A DNA stretch of 64,000 nucleotides from Hemileia vastatrix (Eukaryota; Basidiomycota; Pucciniomycetes; Pucciniales; Zaghouaniaceae), in the NCBI GenBank assembly GCA_030280995.1, contig JASXTE010000012.1, forward strand, positions 7,539,001 through 7,603,000, read 5' to 3'. Positions 11,016 to 64,000 of this stretch are shown in pieces. Made by a program: the position numbers and the translations under genes. Under the pieces are notes generated by a model. The model had not been told where the DNA came from. It did not search any database and saw nothing but the letters and a program-made list of their open reading frames with translations. Position 1 is the stretch's first letter. Every line of letters starts with the position of its first letter.

Positions 11016-11199
11016 GACAAAATTTTTATTTTAGGGCTTAAGAACAGAAATGTAGGTGTGTTATTCTCCAGAATGACATAAGCTCAGGATATGTGATTTG
11101 AAACCATGTGAATTGCTCATGGATGTGATGAGTTTGGGATCAGTAATTAGGAATGGAAATTGGGGTATAAGAAGTGGGATAATGCATTATCGTGGATTC

Positions 11200-11231
11200 C
11201 TTATCCACTAGCCCTGGGGCTAGTGGATAAG
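11200..11231. repeat. Subterminal palindrome of element C
   Basis: A 32-bp palindrome with CTTATCCACTAGCCCT and GGGGCTAGTGGATAAG, a single central mismatch, sits about 85 bp inside the right terminus. Confidence 0.85.
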
Positions 11232-24682: not shown

Positions 24683-24766
24683 TGCCTGAATAGAAGCATT
24701 TTTAGGATCATTTAAGATAGTAACTAATTTAATTAAATCAGAATCCTTATCATATGAATTTAGAAT

Positions 24767-25291: not shown

Positions 25292-25357
25292 TAAGCAACT
25301 TTTTAATGTATCAAAAGCTTTTTGACAGTCATTATTCCAGAGAAAGGCAACATCTTT

Positions 25358-26266: not shown

Positions 26267-27362
26267 TTTCTGGGTCCAATTTCACTCCAAACATGGTTAA
26301 AATATCATTACCCATTATAAACCAATTGCTTAAATTATCATTTTTCATGACAACAAATTCACAAATAGCTCTGACAAAACCACCTTTATATTTGAAGAAT
26401 ACAGAGGTTTTGTATTTGCCAATAGGAATCAATGTAGAACCATACCCTCTCCATTTTTCAGAAGTTATAGGTAATAATTTACTCAAATAATCCTTATCTA
26501 CTGAAGCTAAAGCCTTTTCAGAGACTACACTTCTTCAAGCACCAGAGTCAAGAACTATATCAACATTTTTACCATCAATGATAACAGGTGCTTTCAAGGG
26601 GGATATGGCTATAGAATTGTTAGTAATATCTTTAATTATTTCAGCATTTTCCACTGAAGATAAATCCAATACACATTCTTCAGATATATTATCTAAATAA
26701 TGGACATCCTGTTCTAACATTAAAACATCTTTAACAGAGTCATTGCCATAGGAGATATTACTTTCACAATCACTAGAAGAATTATTGATATCAATTTCAG
26801 CTTCATCAGTGTCTTCATTTTGTTCAGCAAGATGAATTTTCTTGTCACAAACATGACCCTTTTGCCACGGTTTGTTACATTTATAACAAGTATTTTTTGC
26901 ATATTTTTTAGGTGCAACTGGGGCAGAGGGTTTACCAGATTTTTCTGGGAGATTTGTAGAAGGTTTATTCTGATCATTATAAGATTTACCAAGGTAATTC
27001 TTTGGTTCATATCTATGGTTGAGTAGTACCTCATTACAGATATTAATGAAAGAGGAATTTTCCCTTACATGCTCAGTTCTAGCGACAATCAAATCTCTAA
27101 GAGAATTTGGTAATTTATACAAGATTTTATCTCTCCAAATATCATAATCCATCTTTGGATCAATTGCTCTTAGGATTTTTGTTACTTTCATAAGAAAAAC
27201 AATGGTCTTTTCAACAGAGGATGATACATATCTAGTATTCTCATACAGTCTTTGCTGAGCTAACCTGAATTTTGAACCACCAAACTGATTCTCAATCAAG
27301 GATTTCCAATCATTCCAAGTATAATGATTGTTATCTAAAAGGACAGATTCATACCACATCAA
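26199..27362 (-). pseudogene. Capsid-like, zinc-knuckle and protease region of the nested gypsy
   Basis: From 27362 the frame has the capsid-like region (WKSLIENQFGGSKFRLAQQR), the zinc knuckle CYKCNKPWQKGHVC and an acidic linker, then the protease motif VLDSGA followed by TGA (26536). Copy 1 has GGSVV after DSGA, so a glycine codon has become a stop. The frame continues as SVVSEKALASVD into FIMGNDILTMFGVKLDPEN at about 26260, where it collides with the reverse transcriptase frame through a deletion. Confidence 0.88.
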
Positions 27363-27574
27363 GGCTAAATTGGAAAATAAAGAAATTAGCTTAGAAACAA
27401 TTTCCTCATCAGGTAGTTTATAAGATCTCTTTAACTTATCAATTCTTTGGATAAAGTGTTGCCAATCAGAAGAAGAATCACCATAAAGGTAGGATATTGG
27501 TCCAACTTAAGCCAATTTTTCTGACTACTGGGATGGTTCATTTTTTGGTTTGAATTATTCATCATTAATAATTC

Positions 27575-28534
27575 CTAAAGTTTAGCCAGGTGTTCAGAAA
27601 TTTCATTATTTACAGAAACAGCTGGTGCATGACCATCACAAGATTTTTTACTAGTAGCAGAAGATTTTACAGACTCATTGTCAGTTTGTTTAATGGTTGA
27701 AATATGAGGAAGAAAGGAGGAACTCTGCTCAGGTTCTTTTTCTTTATTTTTATGCAGCTTATGGACAGCATTCCCATTTATACCATTATTGATGGTTAAG
27801 GTTGAGAATTTTTCCTGCAGGTCAGACACATAGTTTCTTATCCTTGGAATTTCAGACATCTGGCCATTTACTTTTGCAAGAGATAAAACATTTCTGTCCT
27901 CAGAAACTGTGTGTTTGGCACTTAGTGCATGGAAATCATTCTTTAGCTTTTTAAACTCATTTTGTAGAGATTTTATTTCACTTTTTAATGAATAATTTTC
28001 TTCAATAAGGGGTTTCAATTCACTCAAGGTTTTATGTAGATTGATATTTTTATCTGAGATACCTCTATGGTCACTCCTTATTTGTTTTTGTTGGCTAAGA
28101 ACAATATTCAAGGTTTCTTTGATTTTAAAATAAGCTGTATCCTGTACAGAAGAACTTACTTTACATTGCAAGTGCAAATTATTTAATCTATAATTCTCAT
28201 GGATTAACACATCTCTCAAATGTTTGTCTTTCACAACATTAAAATCAAGGGTATCTTTCAATATTTCTTCAGAAGTTTTCTCAATTAAGGTATAGACTTC
28301 AGGGGAAACAGAATCATTCATAATTGCAAGAGAAGGATTAATTAAAGAAGTAGAAGTCAAATGTAAAGTTTCATCAAATGATAATTTGCTAATTACATTA
28401 ATAGGGCTACTAGTTGCAGGAAGCTGTCTTTTAACAGGTTTAACTGTTCTTTCACCATTCTCAATAATATTACCTGCAGAAGAAGACTTATTAGAAAAAA
28501 TTCCCAAGTGACTATCAACCAAATTACTTACCAT
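27575..28534 (-). pseudogene. Gag coiled-coil region (ORF-B start) of the nested gypsy
   Basis: ORF-B starts at the ATG 28534-28532, embedded in CCATGG and overlapping the ORF-A stop, as in copy 1. It is hydrophilic with coiled-coil-like runs such as SLKSEIKSLQNEFKKLKNDF. It ends at TAG after EHLAKL, where copy 1 has a Gln codon (CAG to TAG). A one-base loss near 27483 then shifts the frame before the capsid-like part. The same frame is also open upstream of the ATG to 28858. Confidence 0.82.
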
Positions 28535-29207
28535 GGCAGAGGAGGAAACTTCCACTGAGATTGAGTTTGGGATTGGGCTTGGGCCTTCTTTCTCCTGCCT
28601 TGTTGGTAAGGATGAGGAGGAGGATGGAAATTGGGTGTTCTGGATGGGCCAGGTTGATGATGAGGAGGATTTTGCACATTCTGCTGGTAGTGACTCATTG
28701 GATAATCCCATTTCCTTTGCTCTACTTCCAGAGTACTTTGATTTTGGGTGAAGGAGCTGGGGGGCTGCGAAGATTGAGCCTGAAACTGAGGCTGATTGGG
28801 AGGCAACTGAGGAGGGGCTGGGCCTGATTTTGGTTCCTGAGTTCCTGAACTTGATCACACAAGGTGTCTACTTTGCCTTGTATTTCATGTTTTCTGTCTT
28901 CAGTTCTTTGATGTGAATGGACAGATTGCTGATTTGCTGGGGCAGAATAAGTTTTTTTATTTTGAATCCTTTCGGAAGACCTTCTTGAGGTACTGGAGGT
29001 TTTACTTCCTTCTGTTGTGCTGGGGGAAGGGGGTTTGATTTGTTTACTTCTCCTGTCATTTCCACATCCTGAATTATGTGAATTTTTCTTGTTAGCATAA
29101 GATTTTTTATGTTAAAATTTAGAAGAACTCACATTATCAGCATCATAATCAATTTCAATTTCATCCACTTGCATGTTATCAATACTCTCAGCGAATTTGT
29201 TGGACAT
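28528..29207 (-). pseudogene. ORF-A of the nested gypsy, intron conserved, frameshifted
   Basis: Exon 1 is 29207-29133 (25 codons, MSNKFAESIDNMQVDEIEID), the intron is 29132-29069 (64 bp, donor GTGAGT, acceptor TTCAG) and exon 2 starts with DVEMTG. A single-base loss at KYKAK (about 28868) shifts the frame; the Pro/Gln-rich tail continues to KFPPLPW and TAA (28530-28528). Exon and intron lengths equal those of copy 1. Confidence 0.72.
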
Positions 29208-32612: not shown

Positions 32613-34397
32613 AGTAACCCATGAAGTAATATTTAAGGAACCCTATAGTAGATTCTTGATCTTTTTACATTAATAATTCACCCTAGTATTTTGAATAATC
32701 TGAGAAATCAGAGTAGACAAAAACTCAATCAGAGAAAGTGTTTGAATGACAAAAGCTTTTCAATAACCAAAATTTAAAATTTTACTAAACCTCATGGCAA
32801 TTTCAAATAATTTTTTTACTCAAATTTCATAAATGTAGCTAAATAATTATTTAAATGGCTTAAATTATGAGGAAAAAATCCCTTAATGATACAATTTCCT
32901 ATTTAAAGTAACCTAGAAGATACTTCAAGTTAATTTATTCTACTTATTATATTTGAATTTAAATAGGTGTTTATTAATATAAATTATAGAAAGAAAAAAC
33001 ATAAGAGATTTTAAGCAACAATTACGCACAAAGTTCTATAAGTAAATTTTCTCAGTAATGTCAAAGTAGAATTTTGGATTTGATTTAAATCTGCAGTGAT
33101 TATTAAAATTAAGTCCAGCCACATAAAATGCTACAATTACATTGGAAACTTAAATTTATAAAATAAGTATATTTATATATTTTATCATCATAATAAGTCT
33201 TTACAAAACCAACAAACAATAATTTAATTTCATAAATTTAATGATATTAGAGCTATCTAAAATGTGCATATAAAAATATTTTGTTATTAATTCATAAGAA
33301 TTTGAAATATTTCTGACAAGTTAATTAAACAAACCATAATAGGGGGTATCAAAGTTTGAAATTTTCAATTATTCAAAAGTTACTTCATGAAAAAAATTAA
33401 ACTAAAGATTCAAAAATATATCTCATTAAGAAGGTACTTTCGTGGCACAATATTCCATATAAGAAAAACTAATCATAGTTCATTTGGTGGAAAAAAGATA
33501 TATTTTAATATGAAAGATTTCTAACTTTTATACCCCCTAATAAGTCTGCTTGTGAGTTATGTTTTCCATAAAAATAAAATAAGGTTATAAAAGCTGAATG
33601 TTTAAATAAAAAAAAGTCCCTCATATTAATAATGCAATTTTTATTTTCACAATGGAAGAACAAAGTAAAGTAAAAAAAATTTATTTTTTCATGCACACAA
33701 AAAGATTTTTTTATCAATTCATCATTTTTATTGAATTTTCTGTATAATATAACACAATTCACAAGAAAAATAAAATTATTTTACATGCAGGAAAATTTTA
33801 GCCCATAACAGGATTTCATACTTCAATAAATAATAGGGACCTTCTAGCAGGTTCCAAATTATTCTTCTGGAAATAAAAACAAGGCTTTACTAATATATCA
33901 AAATCATATTAGATCTAAGGGTTGAAATATATATTCATATGCAAAAATTAATTTTCAAGGTAATTGTTCAGGGTAAGATAAATTTTCACCCACAATTAAA
34001 GTAGAACAAAGCTCTTCAAGAGGTTCAATTGATGGTGGTACATCATTCAAGCAAAGTAATTAAAAAATTTAAGTCAAAAATATTAACAATAAGCTTTTAG
34101 TCTCTCATTAGAGCCCTAGAATAAAAATTTATTAATCTGTTATGAAATCTATTAAGACCATTTTAATTGTAAATATTTTATAAAAATTATTTACCATAAT
34201 TTCAAGAAAAAAAATTATTATGACTAAAATGAAGAATTTAGCTAAAAGTTTAATGTATATGAAATTATTAATATTTTTCAATATTCAAATTAATTTTGTT
34301 CATTTTTTTGATATCTCAGAAATTTTTTTTTTCAATATATCATTTAACCCCATTACAAAGTTCCTTTAAAGAGTTAAAAATCTGTCAAATTTATAAA
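32613..34397. other. AT-rich DNA with one MITE
   Basis: Apart from the MITE at 33341-33538 I see no gene or LTR here. It may include the lost 3' LTR of the old gypsy, but no paired repeat is visible. Confidence 0.4.
33341..33538. mobile_element. Harbinger-type MITE, copy a (198 bp)
   Basis: It starts AGGGGGTATCAAAGTTTGAA and ends with ATACCCCCT, flanked by AAT on both sides (33338-33340, 33539-33541). The family has four copies in the window; a GTGGCACAATATTCCATAT-like core is shared. Confidence 0.88.
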
Positions 34398-41079: not shown

Positions 41080-41510
41080 TATTGAAATAAGAATGAATTT
41101 TATAATATTAAAGTGAATATATATATTTCTAATTCTCTAACTAACTAAAACTAAGATACAAGAGGGGGGGCTATTTATACAGATGCCCTATCCATTGATG
41201 CGTGTGTCCCCCAATCTGTTGTTCATAACATTCCATGATGCAAATTGCCTTTTGTGTACAATGCATTTTATTTGTCTTTGTCTTTCTTCTTTCTATCTTT
41301 TGTAGCTTTTTCTCATTCTAAAAAGCCATTTGCTTGTAGCACTTTCTTTTCCTAATGTTGTTCCTTTCTTTTGTAAGTATAATTGATTCTGCTTTTCTTA
41401 AACTTTTGGTTTCATTATTATGTTGAATGGAATGAATATTAGATTTACTTTTAGTATCTTTTGAATGTGAAAAGTGGATAAGCGTGAGGTTTGCTTTTCC
41501 TAGCTCAACA
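41080..41510 (-). repeat. 3' LTR of the copia element
   Basis: It runs from TATTGAAATAAGAATG to CCTAGCTCAACA and matches 45620-46052. The terminal TG is missing compared with the other copy. A purine tract (GGAAGGGAGAG on the minus strand, 41521-41511) abuts it inside. Confidence 0.92.
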
Positions 41511-42286
41511 CTCTCCCTTCCACTTGTCATTTCAATAGAGCTTTCTGAAAATAAGCCTAGTAATCTGATAAAGTAGTTATGCTTTACTCTGTCTAAACCT
41601 TTAGTAAAAATATCTGCTACCATCTCTTGTGTTGGGACATAGGTAATCATGATTTCTTTATTTTTAATTAAGTCTCGAATGTAGTTGTAATGTACATTAA
41701 TGTGTTTTGTTCTGGAGTGATATTGACTATTTTTTACCATTTCCATGGCACTCTGGTTATCTGAGAACAATTGAATTGGACCAATAATTTTTAGTCCTAG
41801 GTCATTAATAATTTTTCTATACCATTGTGCTTCTTGTGATGCTGATAGATATCCTCTAAATTCGGCCTCTGTAGACAATATTCTAACCGCCCCTAGTTGT
41901 TTACTGCACCATGATACACAGAATCCCCAGATTTGGAATACATAACCACTCTAAGATCTTCTTTTTAAGTCTTCGGCATAACTTGAATCCATGTAGCCAA
42001 TGAGGTTATTGCTTTCATCATTTTTAAACAGTATTCCTAAATCTTGGGTCCCTTTTAAATATCTTAATACTCTTTTAAAGGGTATCCAGTGTGAGTTATT
42101 TGATTTTTCAAGAAACTGTGATATAACACTTACTGCAAACAATATGTCAGGTCTTGTACATTGTGCTTGATAGTTTAATGACCCCACAGCTGCTCTATAG
42201 TCTAAGTTCTTTTCTTTAAATACTTCATGTTCTTCATCAGTTGCGCTCTCAAGTGTTATATTTGTTTGTATTGGTGTACCAACCAT
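41318..42286 (-). pseudogene. copia RNase H and end of pol
   Basis: From 42286 the frame reads KNLDYRAAVGSLNYQAQCTR and PDILFAVSVISQFLEK, then YMDSSYAEDLKRRS with the first catalytic Asp. After a stop (about 41950) the frame resumes as LSTEAEFRGYLSASQEAQWY (Glu), IQLFSDNQSAMEMVKN (Asp) and SRTKHINVHYNYIRDLI, standard copia RNase H. The C-terminus extends into the 3' LTR with a stop at 41318. The enzyme would remove RNA from the replication hybrid. Confidence 0.9.
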
Positions 42287-42355
42287 TTTTCCATCTTCTA
42301 GTCAATACTTTTCTATCAAACTTTTTGTGTAGTGTTGTTGAGATTAGACAATCTC

Positions 42356-43759
42356 TCACTTATTTCCATATATGATCTTTATTCCCAAGATATGACTTGC
42401 TACTCCCAAGTCCTTGATTTTGAAATTGTTACTTAATTCTTTAATAATTTGGTCAGAATCTTTGCCAATTAATATGAGATTGTCTACCCATGCAAATACT
42501 AGTTGTCCATGTTTTGATATAAGCAGACATGGGTCTGCATCACTTATCCAATAACCTTTGCTTATAAACCATTCAGTCATTGTATTGTACCAACCTCTGG
42601 CAGCTTGTTTTAATCCGTATAGTGATTTTTTTAATTTTATTAGGTGGTCTTTGGGATTCTTGATTAATTCATTGACTATTTCACTTGATCAGACTTCTTG
42701 TTTTGTTTCTTTTATCCAGTCTATGAATCCTTCTGGTATGTTTATATATACTGATTCTGATTCATCTAGTTTTGTATTTAAGTATACTGTCACAAAATCT
42801 ACCTGTCTAGGTTTTAAGCCTCTTTTTACAGAATAATTAAGTATGAATCTTAGCATACTAACTTTTCCAGTTGGAGAAAAGGTTTCATTGTAGTCTATCC
42901 CATTTCTTTGTTTATACCCTTTTGCTACACACCTTGCTTTATATCTTTCTAGTTTTCCATCTGAATTGAATTTCTTTGTTAGAACCCATCTTGTATTTAT
43001 GATATTTTTCTCTTTACTTTTGTCCTTTTTCTTAATGATTTCGAAGACCCCATTTTCAATGATAGAGTCAATCTTGAAAAATATAGCCTTTTTCCACTGA
43101 TTCCACTCATTTGTCTCTTGTGCCTTTTTAAAACTGTCTGGGATGTATTTGTTTTCCATTATAAATGATTGTAGTGCCATCTTTGATTCTTCATCATCTC
43201 CTTCTTGGCTTATTTGTCTTATTTCTTCATTTTTGTTTTGTTCTTTTATTCTTTCACTTCTTCTTAGCTCAATTCTTTCTTTACATGTTTCTTTCTGTTT
43301 TCCTTTATCTATTGCATTTTCTGTCTCTTTGATATTTTCTTCTCTTTTTCCATTATTGTTTAAATCACTATTTTTTTCTTCATAAATTATCAATCCTGGG
43401 TTTGTTTCTTCTTCTGGTTTTCTTTTAACATCTCTTGACCTGATTATCTTTCCTGTTTGTTTATTCCAGATTCTATATGTATTTAGTCCTTCTTCAAAGC
43501 CAACTATTACCCCCTCTAAACATCGTGGATCCAGCTTTCCAAGATGTTTATAATGATGTACGCTATAAAATATTTTGCTCCCAAATGTAAGAATTTTGTC
43601 TTTTCTTGGGTCTTTTCCCCAAAACATTTTAAATGAGTTTTTGTTATCAAAATAATTATGTAATGTTCCTGCAAATGTTACTGCTTCTCCCCATAAATAT
43701 TTTGGTAGTTTTTCACTGATCAACATTGTTCTTGTTTTTTCTATGATTGTCCTATTCAT
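42356..43759 (-). pseudogene. copia integrase end and reverse transcriptase
   Basis: From 43759 the frame holds the end of integrase (MNRTIIEKTRTMLISEKLPK, YLWGEAVTFAGTLHNY) and a charged linker, then reverse transcriptase: NTRWVLTKKFNSDGKLERYK, ARCVAKGYKQRNGIDYNETF and VDFVTVYLNTKLDESESVY. A stop at 42689-42691 interrupts; after it come LIKLKKSLYGLKQAARGWYN and the active-site box, read as FAWVDNLILIG where YVDD is usual. The second Asp is Asn, which should destroy catalysis. Confidence 0.9.
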
Positions 43760-43909
43760 TCTTTCTGCAATCCCATTATTCTGAGGTGTATTAGGAGTTG
43801 TAGTAATATTAATTATTCCTTTTTCTTGTAGCCAACTTCATAAATTATTGTTGATAAATTCTTTACCTCCATCACTTATTAGTCTCTTTACACTTACTTG
43901 TTTTTGATT

Positions 43910-44455
43910 CTATATTAAATTAATTACTTCTTTGATCTTTTCGCCTGCATCATTTTTATTGGCTAAGCACCTTATCCAGACAAACCTAGTTTCTGTGTCT
44001 GCTACCATTAGAATGTATCTTGACTTTCCTATAGATATTGGTTCAACTGGTCCTATAAGATCTACTGAAATTTCTTCACCTGGAATATTAGTTTTTTCTC
44101 TATTGGCTTTAAATGGTTTTCTAGATAATTTTCCTTTGATGCAAGCCTCACATTTTACCCCGTCCCCCATATGTCCTCCTGGACAATGTTCTTCCATACT
44201 TAGGTGCGCTGATTTTTCATCTTTATATAGATTTGCAAAGGGAAGTCTAGACTTTACTTCTCCATCAAACACAATTTTATTTTTTAGTAACACTTCAAAT
44301 CCTTTTTTATAACTAACTACTTGAGCTCCCTTTCTCCACAACAAATTTTGCAATATTAAACAAAAAGGTAAATCTGGTACAAGAAAAAGCATCTTTAAAT
44401 GTAAGTTTACAATCTTTTGAGAATAATACCACATCTCCTTTTCCTCTAATATCAA
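43910..44455 (-). pseudogene. copia integrase N-terminal and core domain
   Basis: The zinc-binding region reads HLSMEEHCPGGHMGDGVKCE and ACIKGKLSRKPF. The core begins ISVDLIGPVEPISIGKSRYI with the first catalytic Asp. After the TAA at 43910-43912 the frame continues as VKRLISDGGKEFINNNL (second Asp), stops again, and reaches GIAERMNRTI with the Glu at about 43760. All three catalytic acids are present but the frame is broken. Confidence 0.88.
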
Positions 44456-44522
44456 CGATTCTCCCTACTTCTCCTATCACAAATTTTCCATCCCATTCTG
44501 AAAGATTAACAAAATTCCCTTT

Positions 44523-52147: not shown

Positions 52148-53532
52148 TTTCAGCCGGTTATCTAGAAGTTAAAAGAAACTTCAGAAGAAAAAGGAGAAGA
52201 AGATGAATATAAGTAAAGTGGAAAAAAAGGATTAAAACAACACCTGAGAAAGAAAGTAAGGGTTTATAAATAACTATTGAGTGTGAGGTTTTATTTAATC
52301 AAGTGAGTAATTTTTAACACTCTGCTTATAAAATACCAAAACTAAATGATTGAACTGCTCTTAAAGCAACCTTTTTATATAGATATATTTCAAAATTTTA
52401 GTAGTAATTTAAAACACTATAATAAAATTTCTAGAAATATATGTATGAATGTAATAACAATTGTAATTGATAAAATGCAAGGTAGTGTAATTAATGCAGA
52501 CTAAAAGGGGAGAAACCAAAGCCTTTACATAGGAAAATGAGGCCCTCTGATATATTATTAGATGTGTATACAGAGTAAAAAATATATACCAAATGAAAAT
52601 TAAGTTTAACAAAGAATATGAGGTTGCCATGTAACAATTTACTAAAACAGAAATAAAAAAACTCAATGTATCAACCTTTTAAACAATGAAAAAATGTAAT
52701 ATATTAAGTAGGATACTATTTTGGTATAAAACAAGAGAATGTAACTATATTAATTTCAAACCAGTTTACACCATTTTTAATTTTATTAAAAAATCAGATT
52801 TAGTGAAACATATAAATTATACAATTTGTGACGTACAGAATTTATATACTTAGTTAATTTAGTATAAAACATAATAAATTAAGTAAGTTAAACTAATTTT
52901 ATTAGTATAATAGTTATTGAAATAAAAAAGTAATTATTTTAATAAAATCACTAAGTATTAAAATAAAATCTTTCACTTGTTCAATTAACTTGAAGACACA
53001 ATTTTGAATCAAAAAGGCATCCAATAATTATTGGTTGTAAGATATGTTTTTTTAATTTTTAAATATATTTATTTATTTAATTACATTATAAGGTTAATTT
53101 ATTTCTTATAATAATAATATAAATTTTTAATTAATTAATTATTAATTTATAAAAATTAAATTAACTAAAATGCACAAATGTTTATAGAATAGAATATATA
53201 TTAGAGGGTATCAAAGTTAGAAATCTTTCATTTCAAAATACCTCTTTTCTCCACCAAATCAACCATGATTATTTTTTAAAATATGCCATATTGTGCCCTA
53301 AAAGCCCCTTTTTTCTGAGAATTGATGTTGAGTTTGTGGCTTCCTTTTTTTGTTGTGAAATACCTTTTAAAGAGTTACAAATTTCTAACATTGATACCCC
53401 CTATTATGTGTATTTAAAGGTATATACAATTTATATAATAATAAAGTCAATATAAAATTTCTTTTAATTATATTTTTATATAGTTTTATTTTTCAAAATA
53501 ATGTTAATTTGTATAAATTATTTACCTACATT
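52148..53532 (-). repeat. LTR of the gypsy family, interrupted by element D
   Basis: The left edge TTTCAGCCGGTTATCTAGAAG matches the family start TGTCGGCCGGTCGTCTAGAAG. The right part is missing because element D (with B inside) is inserted at 53533; the remainder must lie beyond the window. A MITE at 53203-53402 is inserted in it. Confidence 0.65.
53203..53402. mobile_element. Harbinger-type MITE, copy c (200 bp)
   Basis: It starts AGAGGGTATCAAAGTTAG and ends TAACATTGATACCCCCT, with ATT at 53200-53202 and 53403-53405. The core CCACCAAATCAACCATGATT is shared with copy d. Confidence 0.92.
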
Positions 53533-53587
53533 AGGGGGTACCAGTGTTTTGAGATCTGCAATTAGGGATCAGGAATTTTTTTCCATA

Positions 53588-54050
53588 CACCACACAATAG
53601 GGGGTATCAAAGTTAGAAATCTTCCATTTCAAATAACCTCTCTTTTCCACCAAATCAACCATGATTGTTTTTTAAGGTATGCCATCTTGTGCCCACAAAA
53701 ACATCTTTTTACTGAGAATTAATGTCATGCTTGTGGCTTTATTTTTGTGCTGTGAAATACCTTTTAAATAATTACACATTTCTAACTTTGATACCCCCTA
53801 ATATAGGGGTGGACTTGCTAGCAAGTCTGCAACCTTGGACCCAAACTCACCACAGATTGAACACACATTGAGCTATTAACAAAGGAGCCATACAATCAGG
53901 GATGAATACCACTCATCAGAACATTTTAGGTGGGTGTTCAAGTAGAGTTCAGTATGGGTTTAATATGATTTCAGTCTGAGTTCCATATGAGTTCCATCTG
54001 AGTTCAGGTTGGGGACTTGCTAGCAAGTTCACCCCCTATATTGCGTAGTG
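53588..54050. mobile_element. CACTA-ended MITE, copy 2, with a Harbinger MITE inside
   Basis: The right end is the inverse of CACTACGCAATATAGGGGG and the left end is CACCACACAAT, interrupted by MITE copy d, then ATAGGGGTGGACTTGCTAG. ACTTGCTAGCAAGT palindromes lie inside both ends. The interior matches copy 1 in inverted orientation (GAACTCAG-type words). Confidence 0.7.
53599..53799. mobile_element. Harbinger-type MITE, copy d (201 bp)
   Basis: It starts AGGGGGTATCAAAGTTAGAA and ends ATACCCCCT, with AAT at 53596-53598 and 53800-53802. It is inserted into the first bases of the CACTA-ended MITE. Confidence 0.93.
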
Positions 54051-54081
54051 TGGGATCAGAAATTATTAATTGCAGAAGATT

Positions 54082-54113
54082 CTTATCCACTAGCCCCAGG
54101 GCTAGCAGATAAG
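54082..54113. repeat. Subterminal palindrome of element D
   Basis: CTTATCCACTAGCCCC and AGGGCTAGCAGATAAG form a 32-bp palindrome with a few mismatches, 12 bp from the insertion point of element B. Confidence 0.75.
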
Positions 54114-54124
54114 GAATCCAAAAT

Positions 54125-54156
54125 AGGGGGTATCAATGTTTACCGATCCGCAATTA
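54125..54156 (+). repeat. Left terminal inverted repeat of element B
   Basis: AGGGGGTATCAATGTT is shared exactly with the other end; similarity then weakens (TACCGATCCGCAATTA against CAGAGATCTGCAATTA). The first 180 bp are conserved with element C and include a CCGCAATTATTTTTGC block. Confidence 0.9.
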
Positions 54157-54492
54157 AATAATTTGCGGAAAATAATCTGCATACCCCAATTATCTTCCGC
54201 AATTATTTTTGCTAATAATTGGGTTATTAGAAACTTTACGTGTCAATGTTCACCTCTTATCCAGAATTTTTTTACTCAATTTTTCATAACCACATCTTGG
54301 ACAACTTTCTGTCATAACCACATCTTGACCTACTTTCTGCCATAACCACATCAGGGACTAGTCTCTGGATATGGCTTCTGCCTTTCTTCACACTCACATT
54401 CTCATCCCATCCTGTCCATTCTATCTGCTCAGAAACCCTCACCATCTCATCTGCTTGTTTCTGCTCCTTTTCATCTTCATTTATATTTTAAC

Positions 54493-55895
54493 ATGCCTTG
54501 TTGTCCTAGATCTTCTCAAAGGCAGCCATCACCCAGTTGTTCTTCAAATCCCACTACTCCCTCTTTCCCCCACTCAGCGGAGAAATCCAAGACCGTTCAA
54601 TTAAAAAAAGATTATCATCTCATTCTCATCAACTGGCTTAAAACCAAATCTAACTATGATTTATGTTTTGGTACTGAGTATTCAACTAACGTAGGATGGC
54701 CCCCAGAATCAAAAGTTAATGGCTATCTTTTAATGGCAAATGAATTACCGAATAAGACCAAGGGAAGGATTGATCTTTTGCCTAAAAAGATGTCTGAACA
54801 CTTCAAGCATTACCCAGCCAAATACAAGAAGGCAAAGGCTCTTTCATCTTCCACTGGTTTTGGGGTTACCGACATTGATATAACTAAGGGTATCAAATCC
54901 ATAGACAATAAACTTGAATCTTTATGTCCTTACTTTAAAGAGATGGATGCAATTTTTAAAGAGCAAGCCAATGTTAATCCTGTAAACATGTTGGATGGAG
55001 AAGATCCTATCTCCAAACATGATGTTGAAGCAAATCTTTTCCCATCCTCTTCCTCCACTCAAGCCTCCCCTCATTTAATGAGACAAATCTAGATAGCTTT
55101 TCTGTAGATCCTATTGGTGATTTAACCCAACCAAATCTAACTCAGGTCTGTTTCTTTTTTCTTTTTTCTTATCATTTCTATTTTTTATTTACTTATCTTT
55201 TTCTTATTTCTTAAAAGGCTGATGAACAAACCCAGGATCCTCAATCAACTGAGTCTGAAGGTAGTAACAATGATGAGGAAGAAAATATGAACTTGAACAA
55301 GAAGCGTAGGGCTTCATGTAGCCTAAATTTCCACTCACAAAGAAGAAAAAAAAGTGATACTTCATCACAAACCCGTTTTTTCTCTATGGAAGAATTTTTA
55401 GAGAAATTTGATGCTGGTAAGTGATACCATACCTCTTATTACTTCACTCTACTTTTCTTCTACTTTATATTAATTTTTATTACCACTCTAGAACAAGTAG
55501 AAATTTCTAAAGAGACTCTAAGCTTTGAAAATAAGAAGTATGAGCTCTCTTTAAGGAGGGATGATAGTCTACAAGATTTGGAAGAGAGGAAGTACAAGCT
55601 CTTTTTACGGAAGAATGATTGGGCCCAAGATTTGGAGGAGAGGAAGTACAAGCTCTCTTTACAGAAGGATGGTCAGGCCCAATATTTGGAGGAGAAGAAG
55701 TTTGAGTTAACTCTAAGTATTGAAAAATCAAAAAAAGAGGAGAAAACACTAAAACATCAAAACCTATTAGAGCAGATGAAATATAAGTTTGATCATGAAG
55801 AAAATTCCAAAAAGAAAGATTTCTTGATAGAATGTGTTAAAGCTAATAAATCTGTTGAGGAAATTGAACGTTTAAAGAAATTGTTGTATGACTAG
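54493..55895 (+). pseudogene. Myb/SANT-like transposon accessory protein with coiled-coil tail
   Basis: Exon 1 (54493-55145) has a Ser/Pro-rich start, then KDYHLILINWLKTKSNYD, STNVGWPPESKVNGYLLMAN and KALSSSTGFGVTDIDITKGI, ending around LCPYFKEMDAIF. This pattern is typical of the Myb/SANT-like DNA-binding proteins carried by fungal transposons. Introns at 55146-55217 and 55417-55491 have GT/AG ends. Exon 2 has a basic stretch (NLNKKRRAS, SQRRKK). Exon 3 holds four YKLSL-type heptad repeats (LEERKYKLFLRKND), a coiled coil, ending LLYD and TAG. A one-base shift within TCTTCCTCCACTCAAGCC (about 55040) is needed to join exon 1 to the rest, so the copy is probably broken. It likely recognises transposon ends with the transposase. 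Confidence 0.75.
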
Positions 55896-56063
55896 TTTGT
55901 TTTATTTCTCTCACACTTCAACTGTTCATATTTATTTGTACGTAAAATTTACAATAATTTCCTGTATTTCATTACTCTATCAATCATTACTTGAATTTTC
56001 ATATTTTAATGTTAAATATTCTTTTTTTAAATAAAATTTTCATGTCTCTTTTAAAAATTTGAC

Positions 56064-56480
56064 AATCCCCCACCCCTGGATTTTTTTGAAGTAAGGGGTG
56101 GGTATCACCAAAATTCTTTCATGTCATGAATCTTGAAAGTCTTATATGAAACTTTGGCTTTACTACCCCCTACATTTTACCGGTCTCCCCAAAATTCTTA
56201 CATGTCAAGAATTTCACAAGTCTTATAAGAAATTTTGGCAAAACCCCCCAAGGATTTTATTGAAGTAAGGGACAGGTATCACCAAAAATTTTTCACCAAA
56301 ATATTTACAAGTCAAATAAATTCTATATCTGTTTTAAAAAATTGGCAATACTCTCCCCTGAATTTTGTTGAAGCAAGGGGTGGGTATCACCAAAATTTTT
56401 CTAAGTCATCAATTTCACATGTCAAATTTGAAAATTTGGCAATACCCCCCCTGCATTTTATTGAATTAAGGGGTGGAAGT
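56064..56480. repeat. Four to five tandem units of about 75-110 bp
   Basis: Each unit has CCCCC(A/T)-type sequence, TTTTATTGAAGTAAGGGG-like sequence, GGTATCACCAAAATT and CATGTCA-AATTTCACA. The last unit begins the block that is repeated in inverted orientation at the window end, after the TET remnant of element D. Confidence 0.82.
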
Positions 56481-56775
56481 CATCTAAATTTAATATAATT
56501 ACATAAATTATCAAAAAATATCTAATATATATCAATTTCCCTAGTTTAAAGTAATGACAATTCCTCAAGCCAAAATGCAGATCAAATCTAGAAACAAAAG
56601 TTTGGGACTTTCCACAGGTGTAGGCTAGAGGAACCCCATGAAACAAATAAACGTTATCATGATTACCTGTTATACAACCAATAGTTGTTGGCTCATCACT
56701 TTACTTGAGCGAATTGATATATAAAAAATATTTATTAAAAATTTATGAAAAAATATAAATTTTTTGATGACAACT

Positions 56776-58123
56776 CTAATCCCCATACTTTTTGGATCTA
56801 GATAAAGTTTTTTTAAATAGATTAACTTTACCTTCTTTCTTTACCTTGTTGATTCTTTGAATCAACTTATGACTGATTTGAAATGAGCAACCAAAATGTG
56901 TTAAATCTTGACAGGATTCCAAACCAGGAGGAGCTTTGGTCGTTTGATGATTATCCTTAGAAGAATTCCAAATAGTTTCGATGATACCATTTCCCAAACC
57001 AAAATCAATGATGCACCAGTGGTCTGGAAAATATAAACCATGTCCTTTGATTTTAGCTGGAGATGGTATTGGTTGGCCAGTTATCGGATTGATATATGAG
57101 AATATACCAAAAGTAAGAAAATTGGTGTCATTCCTATCAATATGAATCCTATTGTGTAATCCAGAATGAGTGATAATAACTTTAGAAAATAAAAGATATT
57201 TGTGGCTCATATCTTCCCATTTGGAGTCACACCAATTCAGTATTCCAACTTTGGTTGCAAGTTCATGATTTTTTTCAAATGCTTTATTACAGAGCTTTTT
57301 GAGTCCAAGAGCAAGAAAAGAGTTAAATGAAGGTAGAGTGTCCCATAAGCAAAAATCTTCATCTTTTTGAGCTTTATTGATATTCTTGAGCAATGAATAT
57401 ATGCCTATATAAATGAAATAAGTGAAATGATATTAAGAATGGAAAAAAATTATTAGACATACCAAGAGAATATCCTTTAACAAAACCAGGTCTCCAACCA
57501 AATACAATCATGATACCACCCAAAAAATTCGTATTCCTTATACGTAACCAAACCAAAGCCATTTGATAAAGAGTTATGATAAGATTTGATAGTTGATTAA
57601 AAGATTCATCTTTTACACCATCAAATGAATGAACTTCTAAAATGATTTGAGCCTTATAAGTATTACTGATAACTGCAAAAACTCAATCATCACCAAATTC
57701 GGTTAGATATTTGATATCTTCTGGTAATTTTTTCAGATATTGATTTTTTTTATCTACTTTAGTTTTATGAAAAAAAATGTTTGGGATATGACGAAAATAA
57801 CTTTCACAGAGAATTTTTTTTTTCAGATATCTTTTCTTCTGATGAGACTGATTATCTTTAATTTTTTTTTTCAGATATCTTAACTTCTGATGAGACTGAT
57901 TATCTTCAATTTTTTTGGATCATTTAGAAGATGAAACTTTTTTTTTCAGATATCTTTTATTCTGATGAGACTGATTATCATTAATTTTTTTTGATGATTT
58001 AGAAGATGATTGTATTGAAGTTGATTTTGAAGAAGATTATAGAGATGGTAAAGATGAAGATGATTAAGAGGATAAAGATGAAGATGATAGAGAAGTAAGG
58101 GGTGAATCTGAATAAGAAGACAT
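56776..58123 (-). pseudogene. TET/JBP-like 2OG-Fe(II) oxygenase (element B)
   Basis: From the ATG at 58123 come a Ser-rich start, three basic repeats, then YLKKLPEDIKYLTEFGDD and NTYKAQIILEVHSFDGVKDE. A 58 bp intron (57462-57405) has GTATGT and ATAG ends and rejoins as KGYSLGIYSLLKNI. Catalytic parts are HIDRNDTNFLTFG (HxD codons 57144-57136), GHGLYFPDHWCIIDFGLGNG, the distal His in KDNHQTTKAP and CQDLTHFGCSFQI, where the arginine expected to hold 2-oxoglutarate appears to be His. The C-terminus is RSKKYGD and TAG (56778-56776). Stops at about 58066, 58033 and 57687 break the frame. The family oxidises 5-methylcytosine; this copy should be inactive. Confidence 0.75.
57816..57993 (-). repeat. 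Three tandem repeats encoding a basic motif
   Basis: About 60-75 bp units containing TTTCAGATATCTTTTCTTCT on the plus strand. On the minus strand each encodes DNQSHQKKRYLKKK with small changes, a possible nuclear-localisation or DNA-binding segment of the oxygenase. Confidence 0.85.
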
Positions 58124-58611
58124 TTATTTGATCTGAAAAAAATTTAAATGTCAAAAAAAAATTCAACATATATTTTTTAAAAAAAAGTCACGTAATAATA
58201 TCTTTAAAAATAAAATTTAAAGCAATATTATTTTTAAAAAAAAAAATATTTAAAAGAAAAAAATTTAAAAATTTTCAGTAAAAATTTAAAAAAAAAAATA
58301 CAAAAGAAAACCTGAAGTTTGATTATAAAAAACCTTCACAGAAAATCCTGTCAAATTAATAAAAAAATAAAAATAAAAATCTGTAAAAGAAGAATCAGAA
58401 CAAATAAAATTAAAAAAAATAAATTCAGTAAAATTATTTGTAAGAAAATTTAAAAATTAATGTCTAAACCTTTTTTATTTTGTAATTTACAGGGAAAGAC
58501 CTTAACAGAATGTAATAGTTTTTTTTTCTAAAATTCTGCCAAAAAAAAAAAAAAAAAATACAAAAAACAAATTTTTAGTATGTTTTTTTAGAAAGTAGGT
58601 AACCTCTCTTT

Positions 58612-59250
58612 AACTCCCATAAAATCCCCCTTTCCCCCCTTTATTTCTCTTAAATACCCTATAAAATCCCTCCCTCCTTGCCTCAAAATGCCCCTCAAAT
58701 CCCCTCCTTTCCTGCCTCAAAATCCCCCTGAAACCCCCTCCTTAATTGCCTCAAAACTCCCCAAACTCCCCCCATTCCACCCCTCCTTATATGCCCCAAA
58801 CCCCCCCATTTAGGTCCCCTCCCCCCCTTCTTTTTAACGAACAATCACTAGCAATTGTTCATTAAGTAATTGAATTGGTAGCAATTTGTTTACTTAACAA
58901 ACAATCATTAGCAATAGTTTGTTAGCGATTGTTTGTTAAGAAGGAGGGGGGGTAGAGGTGGCTAAAGGGGAGTGGACCTAAAAGGGGGGAAGGGGGGTTT
59001 TGAGATGGGTAAAGAGAGGAGAAGGGGGGAGAGTTAAGGCACCTAAAGAGAGGGGAAGGGGGGGTTCTGAGGCGCCTAAAGAGAGGGGAAGGGGAGGGTC
59101 ATGAGGCGCCTAAAGAGGGGGGAAAGGGGGGATTTGGGACAGGCAAGGAGGGTGAAATAAGGGGGTCTTGACGAAGGTAAAGAGAGGGGAGAAGGAATGA
59201 CTTGAGGCAGGTAAAGAGATAGGAAAAGGGGTGAAATGAGGCAGCTAAAG
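58612..59250. repeat. Large C-rich / G-rich inverted repeat
   Basis: The left arm (58612-58836) is C-rich with CCCCTCAAATCCCCTCC-like words and the right arm (58935-59250) is G-rich with AAAGAGAGGGGAAGGGGGG-like words recurring about every 30-60 bp. Between the arms are AT palindromes (AACAATCACTAGCAATTGTT and similar). The plus strand could fold into a long hairpin and the G-rich arm holds many runs of four or more G. It separates the transposase from the oxygenase gene. No coding capacity is seen. Confidence 0.85.
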
Positions 59251-59888
59251 AGGGTGAAGGAGAGAAAAAAAAGAAAAAAAAAGAGAAAAAAAATTTAGTC
59301 TAACCTTGAAAATAAAAAAAAGGACTTACAAAAAAAAAAAACCAAAAAAAAAAACCAAAAAAAAACCAAAAAAAAAAAAAAAAACAAACAAAAAAAAAAG
59401 CAAAAAAAAAAAAATCATGATTAGCAAATAAAAAACAAGAAAAAAGAAAAAAAAAGACTTACCTGGTGAGTTGAGTTGAGAAAATAAAAGTAACAAAAAT
59501 ATTTGAGTGATGTTTGAGGAGATGATGAAAAGGATATGAGTGATGAATGATAAAAAAAATCACTGACAAAATATGCGATTTCAGAAAATATGTGATTTCA
59601 TGTAGAGCTGGTAAAAGAAAACCAATAAGCCATCCAAAAAAAAGATCTTCACCATAAATTCCAAAAAAAAAATGAATATGCCACAAACCAAAATACCAAA
59701 CCAAGTGAATGAAGTACACAAACAGGACATTTGGAGAGTAAAAAAAAAATTTAAAAGGGTGGTGAAGAGAAATGTTGGAGAGTAATAGGCATAATGACAG
59801 AGCATATGCTGGTTGAATGAATGTTTTGTGATTCAAGGGAGGGGAGAGCCGGTGCTGGTTCAGGATCCTCTTCTTCATAAAGATCATT
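59251..59888 (-). other. Former transposase C-terminus and transcribed spacer
   Basis: The minus strand after the premature stop still encodes NDLYEEEDPEP and similar sequence as in copy A. Further on, CCAG-GTAAGTC at 59466-59456 is a consensus splice donor that is preserved in element D (62272-62281), so this stretch may be a leader exon of the oxygenase gene. A-rich homopolymers fill 59270-59450. Confidence 0.45.
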
Positions 59889-61012
59889 TCACTCATCCTT
59901 TAAATCAGCTAGGATATTGTGCAGTATAATGCAAGTCATGATCTGATGATTTTCAGTTTTGATCTCCAATTTTTTTTGAAATTGGATTCTGAGCTCCTGA
60001 AGACTAGAAATTTGTCCCTTTAATATACCTATAGCATTTTCAATTTGTACTCTTGATTGGGAAAGGTGATAATTAAAGGCAATTTTGGGGTCATTTTCTA
60101 AGGTTGCACCACGGAAAGAAGGTATAATGTACTTCCCACTTGCATATGCTGAGTCTGCAAGGAGGTACTGAGATTCATCAAAGTATGAGTCAGGGGTTTG
60201 AGAAATCCTCATTCTTTGGAAGACGGAAGAGTCATGACATGAGCCAGGGCAGCACACTATGAAAAGCAATAAGTTTTTTATTGACATCTCATACAAGTTG
60301 AACGGCAATAGAGTATCTAGAAAGAAGATAAAAAGTTAGTTTATGAAGGATGAGAAATTGGAGAAGATTTTGAAGAAACCTTTTTTTGCAATCAAAATAA
60401 TGGTTGCCATCATGAGAAGGCTTTTGACTCAAAGGTATAGTTGTGCCATAAACAAATCCTACACAGCCAGGGAAACCTTCAGCTTGCATTACTTGAGAGG
60501 ATTCAAGTTGCTGTTCTGGAGTTGGCCAAGAAAGTGTTTGAGACTTGAGGGAAAGGATAGCAATCATACAGCTCTTGGTGTATAATATCAAGGTACCATA
60601 TCCTATGTTAAAGAGATTATCCAAACGTCTTACAGCAGCACTGTTTCCATTTTAGCCAAAGCGACATAGCGCAACAGCAAGTTGGATGGCAGGATTACGC
60701 TGTTTGTAATGGAAATTTTATGAAAGATAGGATGATCGGAGATGAGTTGATAAAGTTTGAAGAAAGAATAGGGAGAAGTTCTAAAAGGTGGGTGAAGTTT
60801 AAATGAGGAATTTTGAGAATGGAGGCCAGATCATATTGGGGATCATGATAAAGATTTGGCCCCCTGGTGATGATGTAACACTTTTTGGAAAGAAAACACA
60901 TATAAACTAAAGCATCTTCTAAATCAGAGTCAGATTTATAGTAAAGAACTAAAAGAAAAGTAATAGCATTCATTGTTGAGTGAAGTAGCTTCCTAGTAGA
61001 GAGGTGTTTCAT
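59889..61012 (-). pseudogene. PIF/Harbinger-like DDE transposase (element B)
   Basis: The start is MKHLSTRKLLHSTMNA. RGPNLYHDPQYDLASILKIP follows, then a frameshift, LDNLFNIGYGTLILYTK-like core, and GCVGFVYGTTIPLSQKPSHD, where the first catalytic Asp is Tyr (codon 60450-60448). An intron near 60388-60320 separates YFDCKK from YSIAVQLV. The C-terminal frame has CCPGSCHDSSVFQRM, LLADSAYASGKYIIPSFRG (second Asp, 60155-60153) and RVQIENAIGILKGQ (Glu). A one-base insertion before CCPGS and a TGA at LKDE (Trp in copy A) complete the damage. It would move this family's elements if intact. Confidence 0.88.
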
Positions 61013-61275
61013 TGTTGCCGGTGGAAGAGTTATGTGATGAGGGAAGTGGGAATTCACTGCCAAATGTGCAGTTGGGGTGTGTAGATAGAAAAAAACTTAA
61101 GTGTTCCCCAAAAAAATTAAGTAGCATAGAGTGAGGAAAGACTTAAGGATGACATCAGCAATTATGAGTCATGTGACTTTCTTGCAAATCCATCATGGAT
61201 GAGATGAGTTTGGGATCAGGAAATAGGAATGGAAATTGGGGTATAAGAGGCCGGATATTGCATTATTGTGGATTC

Positions 61276-61307
61276 CTTATCCACTAGCCCCGGGGCTAGT
61301 GGATAAG
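61276..61307. repeat. Perfect 32-bp subterminal palindrome of element B
   Basis: CTTATCCACTAGCCCC is followed directly by its exact reverse complement, with no loop. It lies 84 bp inside the right terminus, at the same place as in elements A, C and D. Confidence 0.95.
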
Positions 61308-61359
61308 AATCTTCCAAAATTAATAATGTCTGATCCCGGAAAAAAAAATTCCTGATCCC

Positions 61360-61391
61360 TAATTGCAGATCTCTGAACATTGATACCCCCT
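61360..61391 (-). repeat. Right terminal inverted repeat of element B
   Basis: The inverse of AGGGGGTATCAATGTTCAGA, followed by AAT and the resumed element D. Confidence 0.9.
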
Positions 61392-61730
61392 AATAATGCA
61401 TTATCTCATCTGTTATACCTCAATTTCAGTTCCTAATTCCTGATCCCAAACTCATCACATCCATGATTGAATTGTAAGCAAGACACATGACATAAAATTG
61501 CAGATACCATCCTTATGTATCTCATCACTCTGTTATACTTGATTTTGGTGGAAAATATATAAATAATTTTCTCATATTTATGTGTCTCTCAACTCTATGA
61601 TACTTAATTTTTGTGGAAAACACATAACATTTTTTTCTGTCTACACACCCCATCTACTCATTCGGTGGAAAATTAACACTTCCCATTCATCACCTAAACC
61701 TTCTTTTAACAAATTTTTCTACCAAAAATA

Positions 61731-61988
61731 ATGAAGCACCTCTCTACTAGGAAGCAACTTCACAAAGCTATGAATACTAACACTTTAGTTTTATCCACTG
61801 ACTCTGACTCTGACTCTGTGTTGGAGACAATTTATCTTATATGTCTTTTCCATGATCTTTATGGAGAAGAGGATCCCAGAACTGCACCAGCTCTCTCCTC
61901 CCTTGAATCAAAAAACATTCTTTCCACCAGCATATGCTCTTTAATTATGTCAACCACCCTCCAACATTTTGAAACACAACTACTCTAA
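61731..61988 (+). pseudogene. Internally deleted transposase of element D
   Basis: The start MKHLSTRKQLHKAMNT matches copies A and B. After SDSDSVLETIYLICLF the frame jumps directly to HDLYGEEDPRTAPALSSLES, the C-terminal tail, so about 1 kb with the whole catalytic core is missing while the frame stays open. The stop is at 61986-61988. It cannot catalyse anything. Confidence 0.85.
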
Positions 61989-63199
61989 TTTTTTTCATAC
62001 TCTCCAAATGTTCAACATCTGTGCTTTATTTACTTGGTTTGGTATTTTTGTTTTTTTAATATTCATTTTTTATTTTGAATTTATGCTGAATGTCTCTTTT
62101 TTGGATGTCTCATTTGTTTTCATTCACCAGCTCAACATGAAATCACATATTTTTTGCGATTGCATAATTTTTCACTGTTTCTTTTTTTCATTCATCCCTC
62201 ATATCCTTTTCACCTTCTCCTCCAAAATCCCTTAAATAATTTGGGTTCATTTATTTTCTCATCTCAACTCTCCAGGTAAGTCATTTTATTCTTTTTTTAA
62301 TTTTTTAATTGCTAATTTTAATTTTTTTTGTTTTTTTTCTATTTTTTTATTTTTTGTATCTAAATATTTTTGTAAGTGTTTATTTTTGATTTAAATTTTA
62401 AAATAAAATTTTTTTTTCTCTCCCTCTTTAATTTCTTTTTTAGCTCCATCAACCAACTCTTTATCCCTCCTTGGCATGGTCATCATCCCCCGTTTCTTCT
62501 ATTTCACTTTTTTTTGGCTCCATGTCATTAAAACACTTACATTGCAGATTATTTATGCATTTCATTTACTTGATATTCAATCTCTCCCAAATTCCAACAT
62601 CAATCTTTCTCACTCTAATTTTCCTACTTTTCAATCAAGGTAAGTTTCATCTCCTTTTTTCATACCTATATGATATCTCATTCCTTCTATAAAAACTTTA
62701 TACTTAAATATATGTATGACTCTTATCTGGATAACAGTGAACTTATTAAACTCCTCTTGTTGTCATCTCCATTTACACCTTTTTCAGTTTTTGTAAAATT
62801 TTAAAAATAAGAATTGGAATTAGGGTTAGGTTCATTTAAATCTAATTTCCTTTTAAATTAAATTTTGCTGAAGGCTCCTTTTCATTTCCCACAAACATAT
62901 TTTAATTTGGTTCAGTGGTTGCTGAGATATTGACTGTTAAAGTTGAGCCTTTCTTTCCCAATTTAATTTTTTTTTCATGTTTTTATGTAACAAATTAGAG
63001 TTATGTGTATTAAAATCATATTTAATTTAACTGAAGATTCTTCTGAAGCCTATATTTAATCTCCCATAACCAGATTTTAATTAGGTTCATTGGTTGCCCA
63101 GATATTTACTTTTAAAGTTGAGCCTTTTTTTCCAAATATCACATAATTTATTTTGTGTTTTTATATTTCACACAATTAGAGAATAAGGCTTCTAAAACT
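61989..63199 (+). other. Spacer of element D with conserved splice sites and a tandem duplication
   Basis: Sequence to 62280 matches B's post-transposase spacer, including the CCAG-GTAAGTC donor (62272-62281). An acceptor-like TTTTTTAG (about 62443) leads to a Ser-rich piece (AWSSSPVSSISLF) like the oxygenase N-terminus in B, followed by CAAG-GTAAGT at 62635-62644. At about 62850-63170 a 165 bp segment is present twice in tandem (GGTTCAGTGGTTGCTGAGAT, GTTAAAGTTGAGCC). B's large inverted repeat is absent here. Confidence 0.45.
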
Positions 63200-63720
63200 C
63201 TTATCTGATAATCATCTAGGATTTTTTCTCCCAAATCTTAGGATCACTCAATAATTTCTTGGACAATTTCTTGAAAGAATTGCATTCTGGTTTTTATAAC
63301 AAGATTTATACTGATAATAATGAAACCAATTATCTTAATTTGGGGAATTTCTCTTACATTGGTCCTATTACTTGACAACCTATTCCTTCCCCAGCTAAAA
63401 TAAAAGTTCATGGGTTATATTTTCTGGGCCACAGCTGTATAATAAAATTTGTATTGGGAACTGGAATCATCAAAACTATTTGGAACTCTTCTCAGGATAA
63501 TCACCAAATGACCAAAGCTCCACCTGGCTTGGAATCTTGTCAAGAGTTCACAAATTTCGGATGTTCTTTTCAAATCAGTCAAAACTTAATCCACCAAATA
63601 AACAAGGTAAAAAAATTAAGTAAATTTAACAGATATAAAAAAACTTTATTTAGTTCAAAAAAGTATGGGGATGAGTATAGTCATCAAATATTTTTAAATT
63701 TTTTCATAAATTTTTTATAA
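63200..63720 (+). pseudogene. TET/JBP-like oxygenase remnant (element D)
   Basis: The frame reads FLDNFLKELHSGFYNKIYTD, NETNYLNLGNFSYIGPIT, then a stop, then QPIPSPAKIKVHGLYFLG and FVLGTGIIKTIWNSSQDNHQ, TKAPPGLESCQEFTNFGCSF, ending near RYKKTLFSSKKYGDEYS. It is closely related to the copy in element B. The first iron ligand of HxD is Tyr (YTD, codons 63307-63315), the expected 2OG arginine is Asn (FTNFG), and N-terminal parts are missing, so it is inactive. It follows the transposase remnant in the same order and orientation as in B. Confidence 0.75.
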
Positions 63721-64000
63721 ATAGCTCTTATAATTTAAATTCCTAAAATAAAGTAATGGTCCAATGACCCTGTGTTGTATAAATGGGAATCATGACAACA
63801 TTTATTTGTTTCATGAGGTTCATCAGCCTACACTTGTGGAAAGTCCCAAACATTTACTTCTAGATGTATCCACATTTTGGCTAGAGGAGTTTTCATTACT
63901 TTATACTAGGGAAATTGATATATATTAGTTGTTTATATATTAATTTATGTAATTATATTAAATTTCGGTGATTTTCACCCCTACTTCAATAAAATGCAGG
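63721..64000 (+). repeat. Inverted copy of 56447-56720 at the window end
   Basis: From 63740 on, sequence is the inverse of the block after the oxygenase in element B (GGAAAGTCCCAAAC, TTAGGGGTGG/TTCACCCCT-like, TTCAATAAAATGCAGG). It marks the continuation of element D beyond the window. Confidence 0.85.

Follow-up and report, generated by a model that had tools for sequence, protein, structure and literature searches.

Transposons of the PIF/Harbinger superfamily usually target the triplet TWA. TET/JBP genes are reportedly carried by KDZ transposons, as Iyer and co-workers are said to have described in 2014. Relief from methylation silencing that a transposon itself encodes is known from the anti-silencing systems of Arabidopsis transposons, which act by another mechanism and without an oxygenase. 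Here we describe a Harbinger-type element from the rust fungus Hemileia vastatrix that carries a Tet-like oxygenase gene together with a DDE transposase gene and a third gene. It lies at 54125-61391 of the window, the whole stretch of 64,000 nucleotides that was analysed (C103:7539001-7603000, C103 being one of 791 contigs in an assembly of 747.6 Mb); positions given without a prefix are those of the window. The closest described systems are those of Kojima (December 2025; PMC12730594), who found TET/JBP genes in seven lineages of transposons among the Pucciniomycetes. The paper describes PHISTA, 15 TET-bearing Harbinger families from five Puccinia species and Austropuccinia psidii (six rusts), with TA duplications and with a third protein that has no Myb/SANT domain, and proposes that such elements escape from methylation silencing (PMC12730594). 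Canonical PIF/Harbinger elements and Nuwa have 3-bp duplications in the same account, Nuwa consisting of a transposase and a Myb/SANT protein (PMC12730594).

An earlier note on this DNA, made from its letters alone, had regarded oxygenase cargo on a Harbinger element as not a standard description; it had in fact already been described, in those 15 families. The element resembles PHISTA, as far as the published description goes, in that a single rust element encodes a Harbinger-type DDE transposase, a TET/JBP-like oxygenase and, in addition, a third protein. It differs from that description, which is all that was compared, in duplicating 3 bp, A(A/T)T, at four empty sites where PHISTA is given TA; in having a third protein whose relatives are weakly Myb/SANT-like, where Kojima reports no such domain; and in an oxygenase that appears to have been replaced within one backbone. 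The DDE_Tnp_4 transposase, the 3-bp duplication and a second protein that is possibly Myb/SANT-like are shared with canonical PIF/Harbinger elements and Nuwa as there described, whereas the oxygenase is an extra gene here and the target triplet is A(A/T)T. KDZ elements, as summarised by Kojima (PMC12730594), have the oxygenase cargo and the proposed role in common with it, but their transposase belongs to another superfamily and their duplications are of 7-8 bp, against PF13359 and 3 bp here. Membership of KDZ is ruled out by the PF13359 transposase and the 3-bp duplication. The likeness to the Arabidopsis systems would lie in self-encoded relief, as proposed here, and the difference in the oxygenase, which only the present element has. 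Thus the idea of an oxygenase-bearing Harbinger element is already published, and it is the TA duplication and the lack of a Myb/SANT domain that the present variant calls into question.

The element, which we call the inner element and assign to subfamily A, is 7,267 bp long and is bounded by terminal inverted repeats of about 32 nt (inverted-repeat pair I12), the left one at 54125-54156 on the plus strand being 88% complementary to the right one at 61360-61391 on the minus strand. Its ends read AGGGGGTATCAATGTT at 54125-54140, with the reverse complement at 61376-61391, and AAT stands on both sides, at 54122-54124 and 61392-61394; an empty site is present in a paralogous copy. The termini and the AAT duplication that had been claimed were therefore located on both sides, and all three genes lie between them as stated. 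Both terminal inverted repeats and a 3-bp target duplication, traits of the PIF/Harbinger superfamily, are present. The terminal 16-mer, with at most 2 mismatches allowed, occurs 13 times in the window, a count that takes in miniature inverted-repeat transposable elements (MITEs), where a first-order Markov model (40 runs) gives an expectation of 0.075 per 64 kb, so that chance has no explanatory power for the ends. The element had also been called complete; this holds for its structure but not for its coding power, as all three reading frames are broken.

The oxygenase gene occupies 56776-58123 on the minus strand, with a predicted intron at 57405-57462. Its profile match to PF20515 (56776-57432, minus strand) has an E-value of 4.3e-25 and scores 89.4 bits, where the curated cut-off is 27; a stop at 57683-57685 lies just upstream of the catalytic part and more stops lie nearer the start. 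The iron-binding residues are kept, as HxD (HID) and a downstream H. The oxygenase profile found a sole relative, an Austropuccinia psidii protein (4.3e-13), and the single oxygenase sequence found none in a protein search. The PF12851 profile had 0 matches in the fungus's own genome and equally 0 in 14 control genomes, and is hence uninformative. The transposase gene (DDE_Tnp_4, PF13359; 59889-61012, minus strand) has a predicted intron at 60317-60379, two frame changes and two stops, and matches its profile at 59889-60335, minus strand, with 3.6e-15. The third gene (54493-55895, plus strand) encodes charged repeats towards its C-terminus and has one frame change and two predicted GT-AG introns; the breaks in this gene and in the transposase gene were read by eye against copies of a second subfamily, B. 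Neither the oxygenase nor the third-protein profile matched any solved structure above chance level.

The third gene's product had been described as a Myb-like partner. The window's own version (frame 54346-55092, plus strand) matched no Pfam family at the thresholds used, but Myb/SANT-like matches to two different families, all below the curated cut-offs, were seen in 3 of the 7 third-protein sequences scanned: PF13837 in the subfamily-B copy B21 (0.0027) and in P0003 (0.29), and PF12776 in P0008 (0.0045). P0003, an unnamed ENA protein, is the best relative (1.1e-61), and the named relative is a protein of Austropuccinia psidii (1.4e-22). These matches, none of them in the window's own copy, concern the N-terminal part and hint weakly that the third protein may be a Myb/SANT partner.

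When the inner element was compared by blastn with the window and its continuation (L001), it was found to be inserted, together with its AAT duplication, in another copy of the family that is older and reversed. The pieces of this outer copy are 53533-53582 and 54052-54124 on the left and, on the right, 61392 to extended position 66085. Its right-hand end, in its own orientation, lies in 53533-54121 (minus strand), with ATT at 53530-53532; the rest, from 61395 to 64000 on the minus strand and on past the window, holds a transposase remnant and the C-terminal part of the oxygenase (63283-63720). Its left end is at C103:7605085, and ATT is found at both outer borders. Recognisable in the outer copy are its third gene, a C-terminal portion of the oxygenase (PF20515 at 16.1 bits, under the cut-off) and transposase remnants detected by blastn only; a central stretch of about 890 bp matches nothing in the inner copy. 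Position 53533 was considered as the partner end of 61391 and rejected, since the outer, reversed copy ends there. The left part of the outer copy also holds two small elements, a MITE at 53599-53799 and a second one at 53806-54035 with 30-nt inverted arms (GGGGTGGACTTGCTAGCAAGTC..., pair I15).

Other copies were sought in 20 evenly spaced 10-kb stretches of C103 and in L002, which adjoins the window and is non-random; the copies counted here come from the window and its continuation, from these 21 stretches and from small extensions around the matches. Six of the 21 (L002, L006, L007, L012, L013 and L021, of which all but L002 belong to the 20 evenly spaced stretches) matched the element, L012 with a fragment only; one extra stretch from another contig (L027, C50) gave no match. 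Two complete copies with AAT on both sides and ends reading AGGGGGTGTCAGTTCTGG define subfamily B: B13 (C103:15999043-16005846, 6,804 bp) and B21 (C103:28006260-28012856, 6,597 bp). Each carries the third gene, PF20515 and PF13359 (2.5e-24 in B13, 8.7e-25 in B21), and both profiles score above their cut-offs (24.8 bits for PF13359) in the inner copy, B13 and B21. All three genes are found together in four complete copies, the inner, the outer (with a partial oxygenase), B13 and B21. A shortened B copy at L006:236-4225 has pieces of all three genes, and another, c07 (C103:6997707-7001437; L026:707 to L007:1437), has a reversed oxygenase piece and part of the transposase. Two short deleted copies are without the oxygenase, one at L006:5797-7296 and one at 9909-11315; the latter, internally deleted to 1,407 bp and flanked by an AAT duplication, is inserted in a further copy ending at 11384, so that 8333-11384 forms a second nest. 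The transposase side of that further copy (8333-9908, plus strand) matches 5620-7201 of the inner element at 82%, with PF13359 at 20.7 bits, below the cut-off.

In total, 9 copies have both ends, of which 6 hold this oxygenase or part of it, 1 carries another PF20515 gene and 2 have none. The earlier note had stated that copies without the oxygenase, combined with signs of its independent insertion at about 56.4-58.2 kb, would refute a single element; this is not what was found. Independent insertion is rejected, since B13, B21 and the outer copy all have the gene at the same place. As to termini of its own, only the A+T-rich pairs I11 and I19 bracket the gene among the 25 longest of 242 inverted pairs (92-97% A+T, 71-77% complementary, unlike transposon ends); a duplication at its edges was not searched for. 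It is clear from the structure and from the co-residence of the genes that this is one element with the oxygenase within its own ends.

The ratios of non-synonymous to synonymous substitution (dN/dS) were then considered. For the oxygenase exon (185-186 codons) the ratio is 0.09 (95% 0.05-0.16) between the inner copy and B21 and 0.12 (0.06-0.19) between the inner copy and B13, and against the outer copy, over 111 codons, it is 0.15 (0.07-0.29). With the inner copy again as reference, the C-terminal part of the transposase gives 0.19 against B21 and 0.12 against B13, and the third gene 0.14 and 0.18. Between subfamilies dN is lowest for the oxygenase (0.12-0.14), followed by the transposase part (0.25-0.26) and the third gene (about 0.35). 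These values argue strongly for past purifying selection on all three genes; the oxygenase was long under selection and so no dead passenger. The raw sequence supports a Tet-like oxygenase kept under selection while the transposon multiplied, which is what the anti-silencing idea predicts of the sequence. Furthermore, CpG is depleted, with an observed/expected ratio of 0.13 for the window, 0.09 for the outer copy, 0.22 for the inner copy, 0.27 for B13 and 0.37 for B21; in the 21 sampled stretches it is 0.21, that of GpC is 0.89, and TCG is the most depleted. Given the TCG hypermutation in Pucciniomycotina that Kojima (PMC12730594) cites, the depletion of TCG would fit methylation-linked mutation.

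We think it probable, though well short of certain, that this is a three-gene PIF/Harbinger-type family whose Tet-like cargo oxidises methylated cytosine on or near the element's DNA and so keeps its genes expressed. Ends of the form 5'-AGGGGGT...ACCCCCT-3' would be recognised by the DDE transposase together with the third protein, its likely partner in binding DNA, and the two would insert the element at A(A/T)T with duplication of the triplet. The Tet-like Fe(II)/2-oxoglutarate oxygenase would oxidise methylated cytosine on or near the element; as a result the genes would stay expressed and CpG sites would be spared from mutation long enough for transposition. The substrate of the enzyme, demethylation and the partner role of the third protein are what we infer from this arrangement. 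Self-carried relief from silencing, already proposed by Kojima (PMC12730594), would fit both the selection and the CpG depletion.

Several observations weigh against this proposal. At least one gene is broken in each copy read. The iron-binding motif is HxN (HTN) and not HxD in both subfamily-B copies (L024:3-449 and L013:1582-2058) and YxD (YTD) in the outer copy, and in B21 the downstream H is missing as well; c07, like the inner copy, has the full set (HTD and H). The HTN common to the B copies could reflect either descent or parallel CpG loss, as CpG loss would account for the change in that codon context. The third gene has a dN/dS of 0.40 (0.25-0.63) between inner and outer copies, and the oxygenase reaches 0.49 (0.23-1.00) in the recent pair of the inner copy and c07, as would be expected from decay after insertion; the ratios between subfamilies are in any case rough because dS there is near saturation. 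Structure predictions were of low confidence, with a mean pLDDT (predicted local distance difference test) of 38.6 for the third protein and 34.7 for the oxygenase exon.

Alternatively, the oxygenase could serve the element in a way other than lifting silencing: by setting a DNA mark for the transposase or for repair proteins (5-hydroxymethylcytosine, or oxidation of N6-methyladenine as in CcTET), or by protection from mutation only. Other substrates and 5-hydroxymethylcytosine as a mark are discussed by Kojima (PMC12730594), and the depletion of CpG, especially TCG, points to strong mutation pressure on the target. We found no specific point against such a role, which cannot be separated by sequence alone from oxidation in the service of gene expression; we regard it as unlikely, but as an alternative with some weight.

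We regard it as improbable that the oxygenase is instead a hitch-hiker, captured or inserted and useless to the element, although its history is partly its own. Between the outer and inner copies, the oxygenase differs at 48 of 111 third positions and the third gene at 43 of 193 (Fisher p about 1.5e-4), and at third positions the outer oxygenase is as distant from the inner one as either is from subfamily B; this difference in history from the backbone is what a hitch-hiker might show. The copy ending at 11384, which begins at L002:2386 (C103:7532386) and has a subfamily-A backbone (third-position differences from the inner copy of 0.21 for the third gene and 0.25 for the transposase), carries a distant PF20515 gene in place of the usual one. 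A piece of that gene is recognised in the middle of the copy, at 7798-8010 on the plus strand (7.2e-9, 36.4 bits, cut-off 27); it lies on the strand opposite to that of the usual oxygenase, and about 4 kb of other sequence, not counting a young Gypsy element, replaces 1827-5379 of the inner element. Kojima also describes TET genes as passing between transposon superfamilies (PMC12730594). Against a hitch-hiker stand the dN of the oxygenase, the lowest of the three genes between subfamilies, and the fact that the gene was replaced by another of PF20515 rather than simply lost. A further mixed history is seen in c07: its ends belong to subfamily B (96% to B21 over 351 bp), and the reversed stretch between them contains an oxygenase of subfamily A, 93% identical to the inner copy and 79% to B21. 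We conclude with moderate confidence that oxygenases have been exchanged between copies, with one replacement and two more mixed histories of oxygenase and backbone seen in these comparisons. As single cases, the copy ending at 11384 and c07 could possibly have arisen by insertion of element into element followed by deletion. With a shared backbone and varying oxygenases, these copies form a natural series for direct comparison of how the cargo affects methylation and mutation.

The length of the target duplication was read from paralogous empty sites, that is, from uninterrupted related repeat copies, with four insertions compared. Filled sites read T|AGGGGG...CCCCCT|A, and a TA duplication can almost always be read from them because the ends read T|A. 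In all four empty sites (those of the inner copy, 9909-11315, B13 and B21) the junction is ungapped with a 3-bp AAT duplication. The empty sites of the inner copy and of 9909-11315 lie in copies of the element family itself; B13 and B21 serve as each other's empty site since they are inserted at different points in related copies of one flanking repeat. The triplet before 23 termini (pattern AGGGGGT[AG][TC]CA; sampled loci and window, MITEs included, L001 left out) is AAT in 11, ATT in 9, TTT in 2 and GAC in 1, and the flanking triplets match in 10 of 13 end pairs, which are those of the 9 copies and 4 MITEs. The other three pairs, TTT/ATT in the copy ending at 11384, AAT/AAA in the short L006 copy and AAT/ATT in c07, count against a regular 3-bp duplication. 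The four empty sites nonetheless reject TA and strongly establish the 3-bp duplication, which was not met for TET-bearing Harbinger elements among the papers listed by searches of the open-licence literature; such sites are a clean means to settle how these elements insert. That this is an ordinary PHISTA with a TA duplication, its AAT a coincidence of A+T-rich flanks, would suit its gene content and host group, the same as in Kojima's elements, and the T before 22 of the 23 ends that start with A, but is very doubtful, as TA forces a 3-base gap at the junction in 4 of 4 empty sites where AAT forces none, and AAT or ATT precedes 20 of the 23 termini. We would suggest, tentatively and as something that may well prove otherwise, that PHISTA is itself an ordinary 3-bp Harbinger and not a separate TA-inserting lineage, its backbone of transposase and divergent Myb/SANT partner being a platform that exchanges Tet-like oxygenases and nearly always keeps one. 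If PHISTA is so understood, TA would be mimicked in it because ends of the form A...T in a target A(A/T)T give T|A at both ends.

Four MITEs of about 200 bp, at 53203-53402, 53599-53799, 33341-33538 and L007:5327-5527, have ends like AGGGGGTATCAAAGTT, close to those of the element, and each is flanked by identical AAT or ATT on both sides; they were probably mobilised by a related transposase. Within the inner element, tandem repeats of roughly 100 bp lie downstream of the oxygenase (56054-56470), and the kind recurs in other copies; a G-rich tandem block is found in its middle (58977-59265). Just inside its right end is a near-perfect palindrome around CTAGCCCCGGGGCTAG (61271-61311), a candidate protein-binding or hairpin site. 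A scan of the window with Rfam gave zero matches. The young Ty3/Gypsy element inside the copy ending at 11384 runs from L002:4954 to window position 5149, with terminal repeats of 1,144 bp that are 99.8% identical, an uninterrupted frame of 2,062 residues and, apparently, GGAGG on both sides. Remains of other elements are seen elsewhere in the window, of Gypsy type (integrase, RVT_1) at 23804-28867 and of Copia type (RVT_2) at 41321-44464.

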